Positions 3,054 through 64,000 of a stretch of DNA of 64,000 nt are shown here, piece after piece. Source of the stretch: Enterococcus sp. ZJ1622 (GTDB lineage: Bacteria; Bacillota; Bacilli; Lactobacillales; Enterococcaceae). The DNA lies in NCBI RefSeq assembly GCF_011038845.1, contig NZ_JAAKDW010000005.1, forward strand, positions 62,001-126,000. Reading direction: 5' to 3'. The notes under the pieces were generated by a model. It was not told the origin of the DNA. It made no database searches and saw only the letters and a list, made by a program, of their open reading frames with translations. Position 1 is the stretch's first letter, and each line of letters opens with the position of its first letter. The position numbers were made by a program, and so were the translations under genes.

Positions 3054-3859
3054 GATTGATCCCCCTTTTCTTCTGTTTTTTTCACGCCGCCAAATCGACG
3101 GTCTCTGTTCTGATAAGAGGCGATCGCTTCTTCTAGATGTACGCCATCGAAATCCGGCCACAAAGCTTTCGTAAAATACAATTCGCTATAAGCAATTTGC
3201 CATAACAAGAAATTACTGATTCTTTCTTCACCGCTTGTTCTGATCACCAGCTCAGGATCTCGAAGCTCTTCTGGTAAGAAGCCGGTCATCAAATGCTCTG
3301 CAATCATTGCTTCGTCGATCTGGGCCGCATCGATTTCTTTGTCAGCAGCTTTTGCCGCTATTTGTTGGACGGCAGTCAGGATCTCTGCTCTGCTTCCATA
3401 GTTCAAGGCAAAATTCAGTACCATCCCAGTATTGTCTTTTGTCTGTTCGATGGCACGTCTCACGGCATCTTGTGTATGTTCAGGCAGTACATCCTCATAC
3501 CCCATCACATGGACTTTGACGTTTTCTTTGATCAGCTCAGGAACGAAGGTATCAAAAAAATCCACAGGAAGCTGCATCAAGAAACTGACCTCGTCTTTTG
3601 GACGTTTCCAGTTTTCGGTAGAAAAAGCATACAGCGTCAGTACTTTCACACCTAGTTTCGAAGCCTTTTTCGTTACGGTTTTAACGGTCTCCATTCCCTC
3701 TTTATGTCCCGCCACACGCGGTAAACGCCGATTTTGAGCCCAACGTCCATTTCCATCCATGATGATGGCGATATGTTGAGGAATAGCACCATTTACATCA
3801 AATTGAAATTCGCTTTTTTCTTGAATATATTTGTTTTTTTGCGGAAAAAAACGTAACAT
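3050..3859 (-). CDS. uppS: Isoprenyl transferase (undecaprenyl diphosphate synthase)
   Basis: This cytoplasmic cis-prenyltransferase condenses isopentenyl units onto farnesyl diphosphate to make the C55 carrier lipid for peptidoglycan, teichoic acid and capsule. The catalytic Asp is about residue 35 in the motif MDGNGRWA. The later conserved motif RTSGEERISNFLLWQ is also present. The length of 269 residues is slightly long because of an N-terminal extension of about 30 residues. AGGAGG precedes the ATG. It overlaps cdsA by four bases, giving a coupled uppS-cdsA pair. Confidence 0.96.
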   Translation of the reverse strand: MLRFFPQKNKYIQEKSEFQFDVNGAIPQHIAIIMDGNGRWAQNRRLPRVAGHKEGMETVKTVTKKASKLGVKVLTLYAFSTENWKRPKDEVSFLMQLPVDFFDTFVPELIKENVKVHVMGYEDVLPEHTQDAVRRAIEQTKDNTGMVLNFALNYGSRAEILTAVQQIAAKAADKEIDAAQIDEAMIAEHLMTGFLPEELRDPELVIRTSGEERISNFLLWQIAYSELYFTKALWPDFDGVHLEEAIASYQNRDRRFGGVKKTEEKGDQS

Positions 3860-57987: not shown

Positions 57988-58637
57988 TTACCAAAACGGA
58001 CTTTCGTCTAGCCTGATTGTTTCTGGAACTTCAAAGTTCTCATTGTTGAATTCAAGCCATTGGATAAATGATTTAAGCCACAAGTTCGGAGAAGCCTTCA
58101 AAAAGAAATCTTCGCTCCAGCCCAGCAAGGTCAAAGCGACATAAATATAAAAAGCCCAAGGAGTTCCTATTTCCCCTTGCGCTTGTTTTGATTTTTTCTT
58201 TTTTGAGTTTGTTTTGAAGGCTTGAAGTCTTGTGGCTTCTTGGATTTTTTTATATCTTCCACCTGGAAAGTTTGATTAGTAAAGATTTCCGCACATACAC
58301 CGTAAATTTCTAATAAATCCCGATTCATTCCTAAGAACAGGAAAATGTCTTCTGGAGTATCTTCTAATCCTCCAGTTTTAAGCATCGCGTAAATTAATGC
58401 ACGCATGATTTTCAAATCACTTTTTGTTAGATTGGCGATTGAGATTGTGCCATTTTTCTTTGAAATCATTGCGTTCATATCTGCCTCAAATTTTGAATAA
58501 TCTCCACCATAAATATCTGCAATGTATTCCATTGTTACCATAGTGAAGGCAATTGGAAATTCGTGTCCTTGAATAGAAACAACAGCCGTATTTTTTAATT
58601 CCTCAACATGAATACCATAATCGGCAAGACGAGCCAT
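57988..58637 (-). CDS. Tail assembly chaperone gpGT fusion, by -1 frameshift
   Basis: The gpG frame can shift -1 at A AAA AAT (58191-58197). It then reads SKQAQGEIGTPWAFY, continues TLLGWSEDFFLKASPNLW and ends at 57988, about 68 residues after the slip. The extension overlaps gpG and has no own start with a ribosome site. This mirrors the G/GT arrangement of lambda and many siphoviruses, where the T part binds the tape measure and tube protein. Inferred from frame layout. Confidence 0.8.
58167..58637 (-). CDS. Tail assembly chaperone gpG
   Basis: A 156-residue protein that binds the tape measure during tail assembly. It begins MARLADYGIHVEELKN and has a Lys/Gln-rich C-terminus (SKQTQKRKNQNKRKGK). 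It overlaps the major tail protein gene at the stop codon. The short form is made by normal termination at 58167, and the long form by frameshift (57988-58637). Confidence 0.85.
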   Translation of the reverse strand: MARLADYGIHVEELKNTAVVSIQGHEFPIAFTMVTMEYIADIYGGDYSKFEADMNAMISKKNGTISIANLTKSDLKIMRALIYAMLKTGGLEDTPEDIFLFLGMNRDLLEIYGVCAEIFTNQTFQVEDIKKSKKPQDFKPSKQTQKRKNQNKRKGK

Positions 58638-59986: not shown

Positions 59987-60302
59987 AAGCTAAACTCAAC
60001 TCCATTTCTCTTGTATCGGGATTCGTATAAATGCGAGTAATGTTATACGTCACAGAATCAATTTTGAGCGCACTTAATTTCTCTGTGATGGATTTATCCC
60101 ATCTGACTTTAATTCGTCTGACAACGTCTGTCTTAGCTTGCTGTGACAAATATTTTTCTTGAGAAGTCACACCAAGTTCTTCATAGAAAATTGGACGCTT
60201 AAATTCATAAACTGTAGTTGGACGATCGTTTTCGTCTGTTCCTGTTTTAATGTCTAGCAACTCAGCTTTCCACCTGAGATTATTCGTCTGTCTCTTCGGC
60301 AT
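59976..60302 (-). CDS. Head closure protein
   Basis: About 108 residues matching the head-tail joining (SPP1 gp16-like) family: beta-rich with FYEELGVTSQEKYLSQQAKTDV. I start at MPKRQTNN (ATG at 60300-60302), nine bases after AAGGAG. It overlaps the connector gene by 23 bases. Confidence 0.75.
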   Translation of the reverse strand: MPKRQTNNLRWKAELLDIKTGTDENDRPTTVYEFKRPIFYEELGVTSQEKYLSQQAKTDVVRRIKVRWDKSITEKLSALKIDSVTYNITRIYTNPDTREMELSLAYVD

Positions 60303-60549
60303 TTTGAATCGCTCCTTGCACAATAAATGGCGTCATAGCATCCATAGCTTTGTCGAGTTCATCTTCTGAAACTCGATATTCATAGGCAATGCCTGCAACC
60401 ATCAAAATAAGATATTCTTGTTGGCCACCAGTTGCTGTTTTGACATAATCTTTTGCCATTTCCAAATAGAAAGAGAGCAAAGAATCATCCATGCCCTTTT
60501 CAAAATGAATATGTGATTTGAATTTTTCAATTAATTCCAAGTTGAACAC
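60280..60549 (-). CDS. Head-tail connector protein
   Basis: An 89-residue helical protein (FNLELIEKFKSHIHFEKG, DDSLLSFYLEMAKDYVKTATG) of the phage connector family (gp6/gp15-like). It lies between the small capsid-linked gene and the closure protein, the normal place. Confidence 0.8.
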   Translation of the reverse strand: MFNLELIEKFKSHIHFEKGMDDSLLSFYLEMAKDYVKTATGGQQEYLILMVAGIAYEYRVSEDELDKAMDAMTPFIVQGAIQNAEETDE

Positions 60550-60555
60550 CCGCTT

Positions 60556-60804
60556 TTATGTTGAAATTATCTCAACTATTTGTTTTTCAACTACAACAAC
60601 ATCTAAAGCGTTCAGACCTTCTAATTCAACTTTATCTGTCGCTTCAAATTTACCTTTCGCATAGAAAATAAATTTTCCATCAGAAAAAGTGCCACCGATA
60701 ACGCCCGCATAAGCACCGTTTACATATAATTTTCCTCTTTCTACATCACCAGTATATGTTCCTGTAATGTTATCAGATCCAAATATATACGGATCGATGT
60801 GCAT
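60556..60804 (-). CDS. Small phage protein after the capsid
   Basis: An 82-residue beta-rich protein with VNGAYAGVIGGTFSDGKFIFYAKG and a C-terminal hydrophobic strand (LDVVVVEKQIVEIIS). It resembles Ig-like or capsid-decoration modules. No function is known to me. It is ten bases from the fibronectin-like segment. Confidence 0.55.
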   Translation of the reverse strand: MHIDPYIFGSDNITGTYTGDVERGKLYVNGAYAGVIGGTFSDGKFIFYAKGKFEATDKVELEGLNALDVVVVEKQIVEIIST

Positions 60805-60814
60805 TGCGGGCTCA

Positions 60815-61160
60815 TTAGGGAGTAGTTTTAGTCAAGATTACTGGTTTAGACCACTCCGACCCTGTAAATGGCCCATCATGTAAATAACGTGCTTTCTCGA
60901 TATCGTTATCGCCTACACCGAGTTCGTTGTATGCTTGGACATAAATGTAAATCTTATCTCCGTCATTTAACGATGGAACATTTTCGGCTGCTAATGTCCA
61001 AGAAGACGTCTCGGTATATCCCATTTTAGTTGCTTTTTTCGGATCAGAAACGTTGGCGTCCCCATAATGAGTTAAATACGATTTTGCCCCTTCCACAGGA
61101 TCAAAGGAGACGGCCAGTGAACCATCTCCATTAAATTTACCTGTTGGATTCAGGGGCGTT
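60815..61160 (-). CDS. Fibronectin-like capsid extension, entered by +1 frameshift
   Basis: The frame has no ATG. Its only near-start is GTG at 61094-61096, which would begin inside the fold. Going upstream it stays open through a Thr/Pro linker (KTPLNPTGKFNGDGSLAV) and joins the capsid end at CCC TAA. A +1 slip at CCC-T would read Pro, then Lys-Thr-Pro, and continue here. The sequence (SYLTHYGDANVSDPKKA, YIYVQAYNELGVGDN, SEWSKPVIL) fits an FnIII domain. It would display a binding or decoration domain on a share of capsid subunits. Confidence 0.65.
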
Positions 61161-62534
61161 TTAGGGTGTAGTAGTCGTCACTTCATAACGGTATACTGCT
61201 GGTTCAAATGGAGAATAAATCAACTGGCCATCTAGCAAGTTGTAAATTTGGAATCCAATTTGATTTTTACCAGAGAATTTTTCAACCAATCGTTGGATTT
61301 CCAATGCGCCGATCACTTCTTGAATTTTGAATGCCGAGAAATCACCGAAGTAAATAATCGGTGTATCTGGTTCACCTTTCTTATCTGCCGCATCAGTCCA
61401 ATCAACTGGATAACCGACTAATGTATGACCAATCCCACCTTCGGCTTGTGTGAATGGACGTAATAGAGGAAACCCATCAGCAGTTTTCATTTTTTCAACA
61501 GCAGTTAAAGCAGCACGATTGATAATGAAACGTCCTTTTTTCATAACTTCCGTAACTGGTGTATTTTTCATTTCGATTAAGGCATCGTACAATTTCTGGC
61601 CAGCGTCAGCTGCGGTTAAATCGACAGCTGTTGCTGGAGTAAATTTAACTGATTTTTTCGCTAACGCGCCAGGGTTTTCATTATCCGTGTCATCACCATT
61701 GAACATGTAATTGATTTCTTTACGGACATAAGCTTTTTTCAATTCTTCAACAACAATGTCTTCGACAGGAACACCAGACATTTTCAACAGCTTTTTAGTT
61801 ACAGTAGCCAACGCATCGAATTCCGCTGGATCAAGAGTAATTTCATCAAATTCAATATCCGTTTCTGGAATATCGGTAGTTCGTTCTTTCTTATTGACGT
61901 TAGCTTCTGCCTTCTTAACTAAGAAAGGATATTTGACATCACCGGCTGTTCGTACCACTGTCCCATATTTTCGAAGTAAATTCTCTTCTTGTGCATACGT
62001 GATCACTTCTGATGCAATTACTTCTGGAACAGTTACTGAACCATTACCGGCATCAATTCCCAATGAGCGCGCTTCTGTTTCTGAAATTTTACCAATAACA
62101 AAATTGGCAAATGCTTTTCGGATTTGTTGTTCTTTTTGTTCTTTGGTCATTTTTGCACGTGCCTCCAATCCGTTTTTAATTGATCCAAGTAATCCATCTC
62201 GTTGTTGTTGGGTAATCATTCCAGAACGATTTTCTGAATTTCCCTCGTCATCTGAAATTTCATCTTTTCCATCTTCGTCTGAACGATTTTCATTCAAATC
62301 TGCCCCGTTTGCTTTTTCGTCTGTGTTATCACCGGCATCGCCGGTATCCTCGGTATTCGTGTCTGAAACCAGTTCTTCTTTGATTCCGTTCAACTCATCA
62401 ACAACAGCATCAATTTCTTTTTTCACAGCTTCTAAATCAGCTTCGCGTAATTCTCCTGATTCAACTTTTTCACGTAATTCAGTCAATCGTTGCTCACGAC
62501 GTGCCTTCATTTTTTTCAATAATTCTTTATCCAT
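61161..62534 (-). CDS. Major capsid protein, HK97 family, with scaffold domain
   Basis: A 457-residue capsid subunit. The N-terminal coiled-coil/acidic delta domain (1-115, DTGDAGDNTDE) acts as scaffold and is likely removed by the protease. The mature part begins around MITQQQRDGLLG and has the E-loop and A-domain typical of HK97 (FDALATVTKKLLKM, GHTLVGYPVDW). GGAGG precedes the ATG. The stop TAA at 61161-61163 follows CCC and may be bypassed by +1 slipping. Confidence 0.92.
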   Translation of the reverse strand: MDKELLKKMKARREQRLTELREKVESGELREADLEAVKKEIDAVVDELNGIKEELVSDTNTEDTGDAGDNTDEKANGADLNENRSDEDGKDEISDDEGNSENRSGMITQQQRDGLLGSIKNGLEARAKMTKEQKEQQIRKAFANFVIGKISETEARSLGIDAGNGSVTVPEVIASEVITYAQEENLLRKYGTVVRTAGDVKYPFLVKKAEANVNKKERTTDIPETDIEFDEITLDPAEFDALATVTKKLLKMSGVPVEDIVVEELKKAYVRKEINYMFNGDDTDNENPGALAKKSVKFTPATAVDLTAADAGQKLYDALIEMKNTPVTEVMKKGRFIINRAALTAVEKMKTADGFPLLRPFTQAEGGIGHTLVGYPVDWTDAADKKGEPDTPIIYFGDFSAFKIQEVIGALEIQRLVEKFSGKNQIGFQIYNLLDGQLIYSPFEPAVYRYEVTTTTP

Positions 62535-62546
62535 GTATTTTTCCTC

Positions 62547-63116
62547 CTACACTTCTAGCGCTTGATTAATTTTTTTGATTAATTTTTTTCTTTCTTCGAC
62601 GTTTTTTTCTAATTCATCACGACTTCTTAATGCAGCTTCTGTATCTTCGTATGCTGGCAAAGGCACAATAGAAACCTCGTATAATTCCACTTCATGGATT
62701 GTTCGAAGCATTGGTTCAGAATTGTAGTCCCACGTTTCTTCTGTCGGCACAAAACCAAAGCTACATTGATTGATGTCTCCGCGTTCCATAGATTTAACTA
62801 AGTCCCTTGCTACCGTTGTGTCTGGTAAATCAACTTCGAATTTCAAACCACGTTCATCTTCTTCAAGGCGAAGGGTTCCGCTTTTAGTACGTCCTAGCAC
62901 ATTGGACCAATCGTGATTGAACAAACAACGAACATCTGAATTACTAATTGCCTTTGAGAATGCACCAGGAACAATCACTTCGCTTAAGTCATCCCATAAA
63001 AGTGTTGGACTGTTGAATACAGCAGCGTAGCCGCTAATGGTCCTCGTATGAGTTTCTTCATCGGAACGTGTTGAAAGATTGGTGATGTCAATCGTGCGAA
63101 TTTCCTTCTTCTTCAT
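62547..63116 (-). CDS. HK97-type prohead protease
   Basis: A serine protease maturing the capsid. It starts MKKKEIRTIDI (ATG at 63114-63116, eight bases after AGGGGG) and runs 189 residues. TISGYAAVFNSPTLLWDDLSEV, the catalytic His in LFNHDWSNVLGRTKSG and the Ser in INQCSFGF are present. It overlaps the portal end by 29 bases and is 12 bases from the capsid gene. Confidence 0.9.
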   Translation of the reverse strand: MKKKEIRTIDITNLSTRSDEETHTRTISGYAAVFNSPTLLWDDLSEVIVPGAFSKAISNSDVRCLFNHDWSNVLGRTKSGTLRLEEDERGLKFEVDLPDTTVARDLVKSMERGDINQCSFGFVPTEETWDYNSEPMLRTIHEVELYEVSIVPLPAYEDTEAALRSRDELEKNVEERKKLIKKINQALEV

Positions 63117-64000
63117 TTCCATCACCCCCTTTCAAATTTTGATCATTCGCTGATAATGAATCATCGGTTGCATTCTTCTGTCCGATTCTCGTTAAATCAT
63201 TTGATACATAGACTGATTGTGTTTCTGGTAAATTTTGTTTGGGGAATCCAAGCATTTCCGCAACATTATCAGGACAGGTAATCATCGTTCTAACAAGGTT
63301 GTAGCCGATACTTGTTTTTGTTGAGTAAGGAACAAAGTCCAAAATGTTGATTTTCCATTCCACTCGATAGCCAGAATTAGGCATAAAAAAAAGAGCGGTG
63401 TAATGTTCGCTCTTGTTCTTCAATATTGGTTTGATTGCTTTGTTGTGCAGATACATCATCGCTTTTTCGATGTCTGTTTTCATCAACGATTGATACGTAT
63501 CAACATTGATTCCTAAAAATTTACCTAGATCTTTTTTATAGACACCTAAATAATTCAAAATAGCCGCATCATCAACAGGACTTTTTAATGTCTCGATGGA
63601 ATATCCTTTTCCCAGAGGAATCATCTTAACAGAATGATCACTGTCATTTTGCGTTCCTTCCAGTTGATCCAATATAGCTTTGACAATTTTCGTTTGGGCG
63701 CTATTATTTGGATTGATGTGGGCGTCCAGTTTAAGCATGAACGCGAGTAAACCACCTTTAGTATACTTGTCCGTCAAAACTTTTTCAGCGCTCAGAACGC
63801 CTTCCAGAGTGTTTCTTGCAAGGTCAATTATTCCAGCACCTTTTAATGAATCAGTTCCGATGTTCTTAATGTGTCGAATCATTTGACCAGGTATTTTTTG
63901 TCCATTCATTTCAAATTCTTCTTGAAGTCGTTCATTGATTTTAGTGGTTACACCGTATGCCAAATGAAGCTGTTCCCGATCTGTTAATGGGAATGTCTCA
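63088..64000 (-). CDS. Phage portal protein, C-terminal part (cut by window edge)
   Basis: About 304 residues of an HK97-family portal that forms the DNA entry dodecamer. The frame is open to the window end (it reads ETFPLTDREQLHLAYG before the TTG at 63963), so the gene begins beyond it. The body includes ARNTLEGVLSAEKVL and VEWKINILDF. The C-terminus is acidic and polar (GGDGNEEEGNSHD). Confidence 0.85.
   Translation of the reverse strand, partial: ETFPLTDREQLHLAYGVTTKINERLQEEFEMNGQKIPGQMIRHIKNIGTDSLKGAGIIDLARNTLEGVLSAEKVLTDKYTKGGLLAFMLKLDAHINPNNSAQTKIVKAILDQLEGTQNDSDHSVKMIPLGKGYSIETLKSPVDDAAILNYLGVYKKDLGKFLGINVDTYQSLMKTDIEKAMMYLHNKAIKPILKNKSEHYTALFFMPNSGYRVEWKINILDFVPYSTKTSIGYNLVRTMITCPDNVAEMLGFPKQNLPETQSVYVSNDLTRIGQKNATDDSLSANDQNLKGGDGNEEEGNSHD

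Follow-up and report, generated by a model that had tools for sequence, protein, structure and literature searches.

Two candidate +1 frameshift sites in series behind an enterococcal phage capsid gene, leading into an FnIII-like and an Ig-like domain

Several phages are described as lengthening a virion protein by slippage on a proline codon at the end of its gene. In SPP1, a +1 slip at CCCUAA adds an FN3-like domain to give gp17.1*, at a ratio of ~3:1 (PMC6316719). The account of Listeria phages gives +1 shifts at CCC for the cps and tsh genes of PSA and for the tsh genes of A118 and A500, with ACA_CCC_UCC as the PSA capsid site, and a −1 shift instead of +1 for the A118 and A500 capsids; it also describes a stimulatory pseudoknot for the PSA capsid, discusses Ig-like extensions in Listeria phages, and reports a suggestion that chance accounts for the frame in which Ig-like domains stand (PMC5009743). 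For MTP-TpeX of the lactococcal 936 group the site is CCC.UAG, and the larger product was seen by Western blot in PhiC0139 (PMC4759559). The passage of the Listeria account that lists cases of two or more shifts names retroviruses, a Euplotes gene and mitochondrial genes, and no phage is in that list (PMC5009743).

Here we describe a locus in a stretch of 64,000 nucleotides from Enterococcus sp. ZJ1622, referred to below as the window. On its minus strand lies a tailed-phage head module consisting of a protease, a capsid gene, extension frames and a small gene, with the following features.

62547-63125, minus strand: protease gene of the head module.
61161-62534, minus strand: major capsid protein gene, zero frame (HK97 fold, 457 aa, phrog_10/PF05065).
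61161-61169, minus strand: J1, first candidate slip site, ACA CCC TAA (CCC 61164-61166, stop 61161-61163, +1 codon CCT 61163-61165).
61140-61154, minus strand: 4-bp stem, an apparent remnant of hairpin A.
61106-61129, minus strand: hairpin B, 10 bp with a CACU tetraloop, starting 31 nt past the stop, inside the FnIII coding sequence.
60815-61165, minus strand: first extension, FnIII-like domain, read by a putative +1 shift (stop 60815-60817); matches the C-terminal part of phrog_7440.
60815-60823, minus strand: J2, second candidate slip site, ACT CCC TAA (CCC 60818-60820, stop 60815-60817, +1 codon CCT 60817-60819).
60556-60819, minus strand: second extension, Big_15 Ig-like domain, read by a putative second +1 shift (stop 60556-60558).
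60280-60549, minus strand: next gene, phrog_4609, with a weak match to the head-tail adaptor Ad1.

Elsewhere on the minus strand of the window, at 58167-58637 and 57988-58134, a tail assembly chaperone frame (phrog_4888) stands before a short one that matches phrog_8856; these are perhaps the usual tail-chaperone frameshift pair.

The capsid protein matched PF05065 with E=1.4e-61, and its gene ended in ACA-CCC-TAA exactly where a preliminary description of this DNA had placed a probable +1 frameshift. As that description had stated, the +1 frame was open from the CCT at 61165 to the stop at 60815, and its reading began PKTPLNPTG..., in agreement with the Pro-Lys-Thr-Pro entry given there. Stop readthrough at J1 was rejected; the zero frame meets another stop after seven codons, and readthrough would therefore yield nothing. 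When CCCT was read as proline, translation gave a single 658-residue chain in which the rule was used exactly twice, at P457 and P572. The preliminary description was thus correct for the first junction and incomplete for the locus, having overlooked the tandem CCC-TAA that leads into Big_15. At both J1 and J2, the rare proline codon CCC and a stop end a virion gene, the arrangement of a CCC shifty stop, and beyond the stop the +1 frame is open and encodes a conserved domain without a start of its own, with a small doubt at J2 from an ATG 10 nt on. We consider it quite probable, judging from the sequence, that two successive programmed +1 frameshifts occur on the capsid message and yield capsid, capsid-FnIII and capsid-FnIII-Ig proteins.

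The first extension is ~115 residues long. Its AlphaFold2 model, made with a 23-row alignment, had a pLDDT of 95.5 and took the form of an FnIII beta sandwich with an extra helix at residues 86-95. The 50 PDB matches shown for this model were FnIII domains, FnIII-like receptor domains and engineered FnIII binders, with an FnIII domain at the top; among these listed matches the TMq values were a modest 0.44-0.64, and five had E <= 0.001. The best match among viral models was a 320-residue protein (TMq 0.75). The FnIII-like fold that had been proposed for the +1 product from its residue pattern is therefore confidently predicted. A Pfam search with the window domain matched no family, and a PDB sequence search using the FnIII profile gave none; in PHROG 7440, a family of major tail proteins, it is the C-terminal part that the domain matched. 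The domain was found in 4 of 395 genomes sampled across the order at E 1e-6, all of the window's genus and with its own genome included, and in 6 of 105 genomes of the family at E 1e-3, representing 3 of 17 genera.

From the overlapping CCT of J2, the +1 frame runs for 87 codons and starts PNEPAMHIDPYIFGSDNITG. The second extension matched Big_15 (PF20622) with 62.7 bits against a cut-off of 27 bits (E=3e-17). When viral contigs were searched with the window Big_15 domain as the lone query, no relative was found; a three-row Big_15 alignment gave one match, the contig of L225 (L-numbers here and below are labels for loci of relatives). For both domains dN was lower than dS. In the second domain dN/dS was 0.07-0.30 in the 9 pairs, of 13, whose dS was finite, rough values as many dS exceeded 1, and second domains appear to be under purifying selection.

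The state of the locus without the two domains could be seen in capsid relatives, which comprised 90 loci (10 genomic ones and 80 of the 97 viral relatives) and 4 phage records. The counterpart of the window's next gene came no more than 60 nt after the capsid stop in 93 of the 94; the lone exception was L028, where 1317 nt intervene, against 611 nt in the window. No capsid gene among the 94 ended in CCC, and neither did any of the 572 ORFs of 100 aa or more in the 90 capsid-relative loci, a set redundant through near-identical loci. Because the next gene adjoins the capsid gene in all relatives but one and none ends in CCC, we conclude from this comparison that the two extension domains are an insertion behind the capsid gene. 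L275, found in a nucleotide-pattern scan, has a capsid fragment close to that of the window and carries the FnIII cassette at the same place after ACACCC-TAA. The absence of CCC endings elsewhere, together with the recurrence of the same junction behind FnIII in relatives, argues that the CCC-TAA junctions are more than chance.

The preliminary description had proposed comparing the CCC-TAA junction among relatives. We examined 64 FnIII loci with 67 copies, omitting the contig repeats L096-L099, L103 and L109 and the phage matches H8 and H10; comparison of 115- or 120-nt stretches reduced these copies to 48 unique junctions, a number that depends on this choice of length. Counts of related contigs are not counts of independent events, and some IMG/VR contigs and genomes are the same sequences. 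The domain lay in the +1 frame at 43 unique junctions and in the −1 frame at one, and was fused in frame at four, gp45 of phage phiFL4A among them. Among the 44 unfused junctions, most were CCC_TAA (29); the others were CCC_TGA (5), CCC_TAG (1), CCC_AGC_TAA (5), CCC_TCA_TAA (1) and three exceptions, AAA-TCG-TAG, ACA-TCC-TAA and ACA-CAC-TAA. The stop of the CCC-AGC and CCC-TCA forms comes one codon later, and the distance from CCC to the downstream stem is unchanged in the alignment, an indication that the shift takes place on CCC. The CAC-TAA and TCC-TAA junctions, two unique junctions found at 8 loci (the L215 group of six, and L100 and L213), may be lost slip sites; a +1 slip there should be poor, and this counts against the shift being always needed. 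In L202, around 3480-3500, the FnIII domain is in the −1 frame after ACC CCA AAA TCG TAG, which contains what resembles a classical −1 heptamer, a possible −1 slippery site.

The genes in front of the cassette were of many kinds. The best matches of the upstream proteins, the window capsid and 20 others scanned, included at least nine PHROG families, four of head proteins (10, 1393, 422, 544) and five of tail proteins (820, 885, 238, 117, 88), and DNA likeness between unrelated hosts set in at the slip site. In 11 chosen representatives, all with a CCC-stop junction and one or more per family, conservation was poor to about −9 and high from −7/−5 through the stop, with CACCCTRA invariant; these include three diverged phrog_10 capsids and two near-identical cassettes and are therefore not 11 fully independent events. 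The slip site thus appears, from the sequence alignments, to belong to the FnIII cassette. With the motif and the domain recurring together after unrelated head and tail genes, and no usable start in the window, the +1 shift at the capsid CCC-TAA is strongly supported. Two FnIII cassettes were present on each of three contigs, at positions 1218 and 3501 in L201, 3504 and 6047 in L237, and 1734 and 4143 in L236; in L201 and L237 the junctions were CCC-stop on head and tail genes alike, and in L236 the head copy was in the +1 frame and the second copy in frame.

When viral contigs were scanned for the 15-nt junction ACACCCTAATGCNCC, with no protein information, 116 stretches matched. Among the 80 of these that were listed, 19 combined 100 or more open codons upstream with 50 or more in the +1 frame. 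Four of the 19 (L264, L294, L323 and L333) had a different domain, an ordinary fn3 (PF00041, above cut-off), after the same 15-nt junction, and these domains sit behind phrog_238, phrog_820 and phrog_10 proteins. The remaining matches were mostly short frames or chance. A +1 stub of 20-22 residues followed CCC-TAA in L278, L309, L296 and L331 and by eye resembles a truncated FnIII start. The loose pattern CACCCTRANGCNCC occurred at 17 places in the 105 family genomes, against 9 for the reversed control; four of the 17 were FnIII cassettes, and the other 13, with short or unremarkable frames, were set aside.

An open second junction followed by a further domain was found in 8 of the 48, namely the window, L104 (=L200), L107 (=L201), L106, L237, L225, L139 and L227; L249, fetched separately, is an additional intact stacked case. 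The window, L104, L107, L106 and L237 had TAA or TGA directly after the second CCC; L225 and L139 had CCC AGT and then a stop, and L227 had CCC AGC GAA CCC CTC TAA. Seven of the eight second extensions contained Big_15; that of L227 had no Pfam match. Besides Big_15, those of L104, L106 and L237 had an extra stretch of ~90 residues, and that of L104 also a HeH domain. Traces of a second junction with a broken second domain were seen in L238, L235 and L202.

The decoding context was examined in the host genome. The only tRNA-Pro anticodon found was UGG, at two perfect places by a genome-wide tRNA-Pro pattern and with ARAGORN run on 30 of 62 tRNA matches, and there was no GGG-anticodon tRNA-Pro as far as tRNAs were found. 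CCC makes up 5.8% of the proline codons in 64 window ORFs. tRNA-Pro(UGG) decodes CCC as a near-cognate and, once it has slipped, is able to pair with CCU; a set of this kind, with no GGG-anticodon tRNA-Pro, would favour slippage on that codon.

Downstream of the slip codon, 28 of the 44 unfused junctions had a hairpin (A) made of CCCCRG, a 7-nt loop and CYGGGG, beginning 7 nt after the slip codon, with the variable pair A-U in 24 and G-C in 4. Against synonymous-codon shuffles the first 33 nt had a mean z of −2.1, a value inflated by relatedness. The glycine codon in the 3' arm was GGG in 32 of 38 cases against 65 of 405 elsewhere, a contrast that relatedness likewise inflates. Pairing over 38 rows was 71.5% versus 67.5% in shuffles (0/500); pairs changed on both sides were no better than in shuffles (382/500), and the covariation score gave 53/500. 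The covariation evidence for hairpin A is thus mixed, and the synonymous shuffles and glycine codon choice support it. Hairpin B of the window has counterparts in L199 and L194, with compensatory changes by eye, and all three are without hairpin A; against synonymous shuffles its z was −4.1 in the window, −3.0 in L199 and −5.0 in L194, and the same region over the 39 sequences tested had a mean z of −0.5. Hairpin B lies so far from the slip site that a direct part in slippage is doubtful. At J2 there was no significant downstream structure (z −1.09), and an Rfam search of 60300-63000 gave no match.

Three other explanations were weighed against programmed slippage at both junctions. The preliminary description had found neither an ATG nor a ribosome site for the FnIII domain, and the first in-frame start in the window is indeed the GTG at 61096, codon 24, with a Shine-Dalgarno energy of −0.1 kcal/mol; for upstream genes, the best start among the first 30 codons had a median of −10.2 kcal/mol. 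Independent translation from this GTG, which the description had left standing, would also drop the conserved first residues of the domain, and that the domain is made in this way, as a separate decoration protein, we regard as extremely unlikely even though the GTG is in frame. Some relatives do offer another start. Strong SD-like scores were found for an in-frame TTG in 4 of 48 FnIII copies, at codon 11 in three that follow head genes (the first copy of L201, −9.3; L233, −9.3; the first copy of L237, −13.2) and at codon 31 in L194 (−8.9), and in these a second route to the domain is therefore possible; against this, 11 of the 48 copies have no start at all in the first 40 codons. Reinitiation deserves more weight at J2. 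If the first slip alone were programmed, termination there followed by reinitiation at the ATG at 60804, codon 6 of the Big_15 frame and 10 nt past the stop, could make Big_15 separately, and early ATGs also occur in the second domains of L225 and L237. The window ATG lacks a clear Shine-Dalgarno sequence (−1.9 kcal/mol), however, and the first in-frame starts in L104, L107 and L106 are at codons 20, 14 and 16, with none in the first 40 codons of L227, yet each of these follows a CCC junction; reinitiation is therefore not a general explanation of J2. GTG codons with stronger scores lie further in, at codon 20 in L104 (−6.7) and at codon 32 in L139 (−8.5). With CCC also absent as a last codon from the 572 ORFs, we consider reinitiation at J2 improbable, and independent starts for either domain in the window unlikely.

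A decayed capsid-domain fusion, or a fault of sequencing or assembly, would leave the downstream frames untranslated. The broken second domains of L235, L238 and L202 and the altered slip codons of the L215 group and of L100/L213 speak for decay, but the same junction is found across many contigs and unrelated host genes, both domains have dN below dS, and the breaks coincide with the same rare motif. We judge this explanation very unlikely.

Programmed slippage at both junctions would proceed as follows. At the capsid end tRNA-Pro(UGG) would sit on the rare CCC with the stop codon next. Most ribosomes would terminate at J1 and release the plain capsid protein, and a fraction would slip one base, with proline re-pairing with CCU, and add the FnIII-like domain. 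The same CCC-TAA choice would be met at J2, where most of these ribosomes would terminate to give capsid-FnIII and a smaller fraction would slip again and add the Big_15 Ig-like domain. The virion would then consist mostly of plain capsid subunits, with some capsid-FnIII and few capsid-FnIII-Ig subunits, and the extended subunits would probably be displayed on the outside as weak adhesins or decorations. The open frames, the recurrence of the motif, the selection on both domains, the lack of usable starts in the window and the tRNA genes found can be read from the sequence; that ribosomes slip and how often, that the products are built into particles, and that the domains stand on the surface and bind are inferred. 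We also lean, with less assurance, towards the view that the mobile unit is a self-contained, stackable recoding cassette, with a slip codon and stop at its 5' end, often a stem-loop 7 nt on, and a surface domain, and that its landing places are the 3' ends of unrelated virion genes, of heads and tails alike, where it gives a graded ladder of subunits with zero, one or two units. Such a portable cassette would speak against the published suggestion that the frame of these domains is set by chance landing.

If these proposals are correct, the short CCC-stop motif is a portable connector through which virion proteins of unrelated kinds gain a surface domain at low dose, and a second one at a still lower dose; the locus would be a naturally occurring frameshift ladder of two steps in a bacteriophage, and on it one could clearly test whether selection or accident lies behind the shift signal. 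Searches of the open-access literature for double, tandem or successive frameshifts and shifty stops in phages gave no stacked case, and those for enterococci gave nothing; as no phage case was found in the literature searched, we rate the stacked pair as new. The slips on CCC in SPP1, the 936 group and Listeria phages are established, and J1 therefore joins a known kind of single slip. The parallel with PSA drawn in the preliminary description was well chosen, in that J1 resembles the PSA capsid case; in sequence J1 is the documented CCCUAA of SPP1. SPP1 gp17.1/gp17.1* and the window have in common CCCUAA, a +1 shift from rare CCC to CCU and a C-terminal FN3-type extension (PMC6316719), whereas the SPP1 protein is a tail tube protein made with one shift, and the window has a capsid protein with two putative shifts in series. 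The Listeria phages likewise slip +1 on CCC in virion genes, but with one shift described per gene (PMC5009743). In 936-group MTP-TpeX a shifty stop ending a virion gene also adds a module (PMC4759559); it differs from the window in having one shift, a tail protein and another domain. Enterococcus phage phiFL4A gp45 carries a domain of the same FnIII family, at 46% identity, but fused in frame to a major tail protein with no shift. Two serial shifts giving a three-step product ladder are found in the gag-pro-pol of MMTV and HTLV (PMC5009743), although those are −1 shifts, in retroviruses, with a different mechanism and different proteins.
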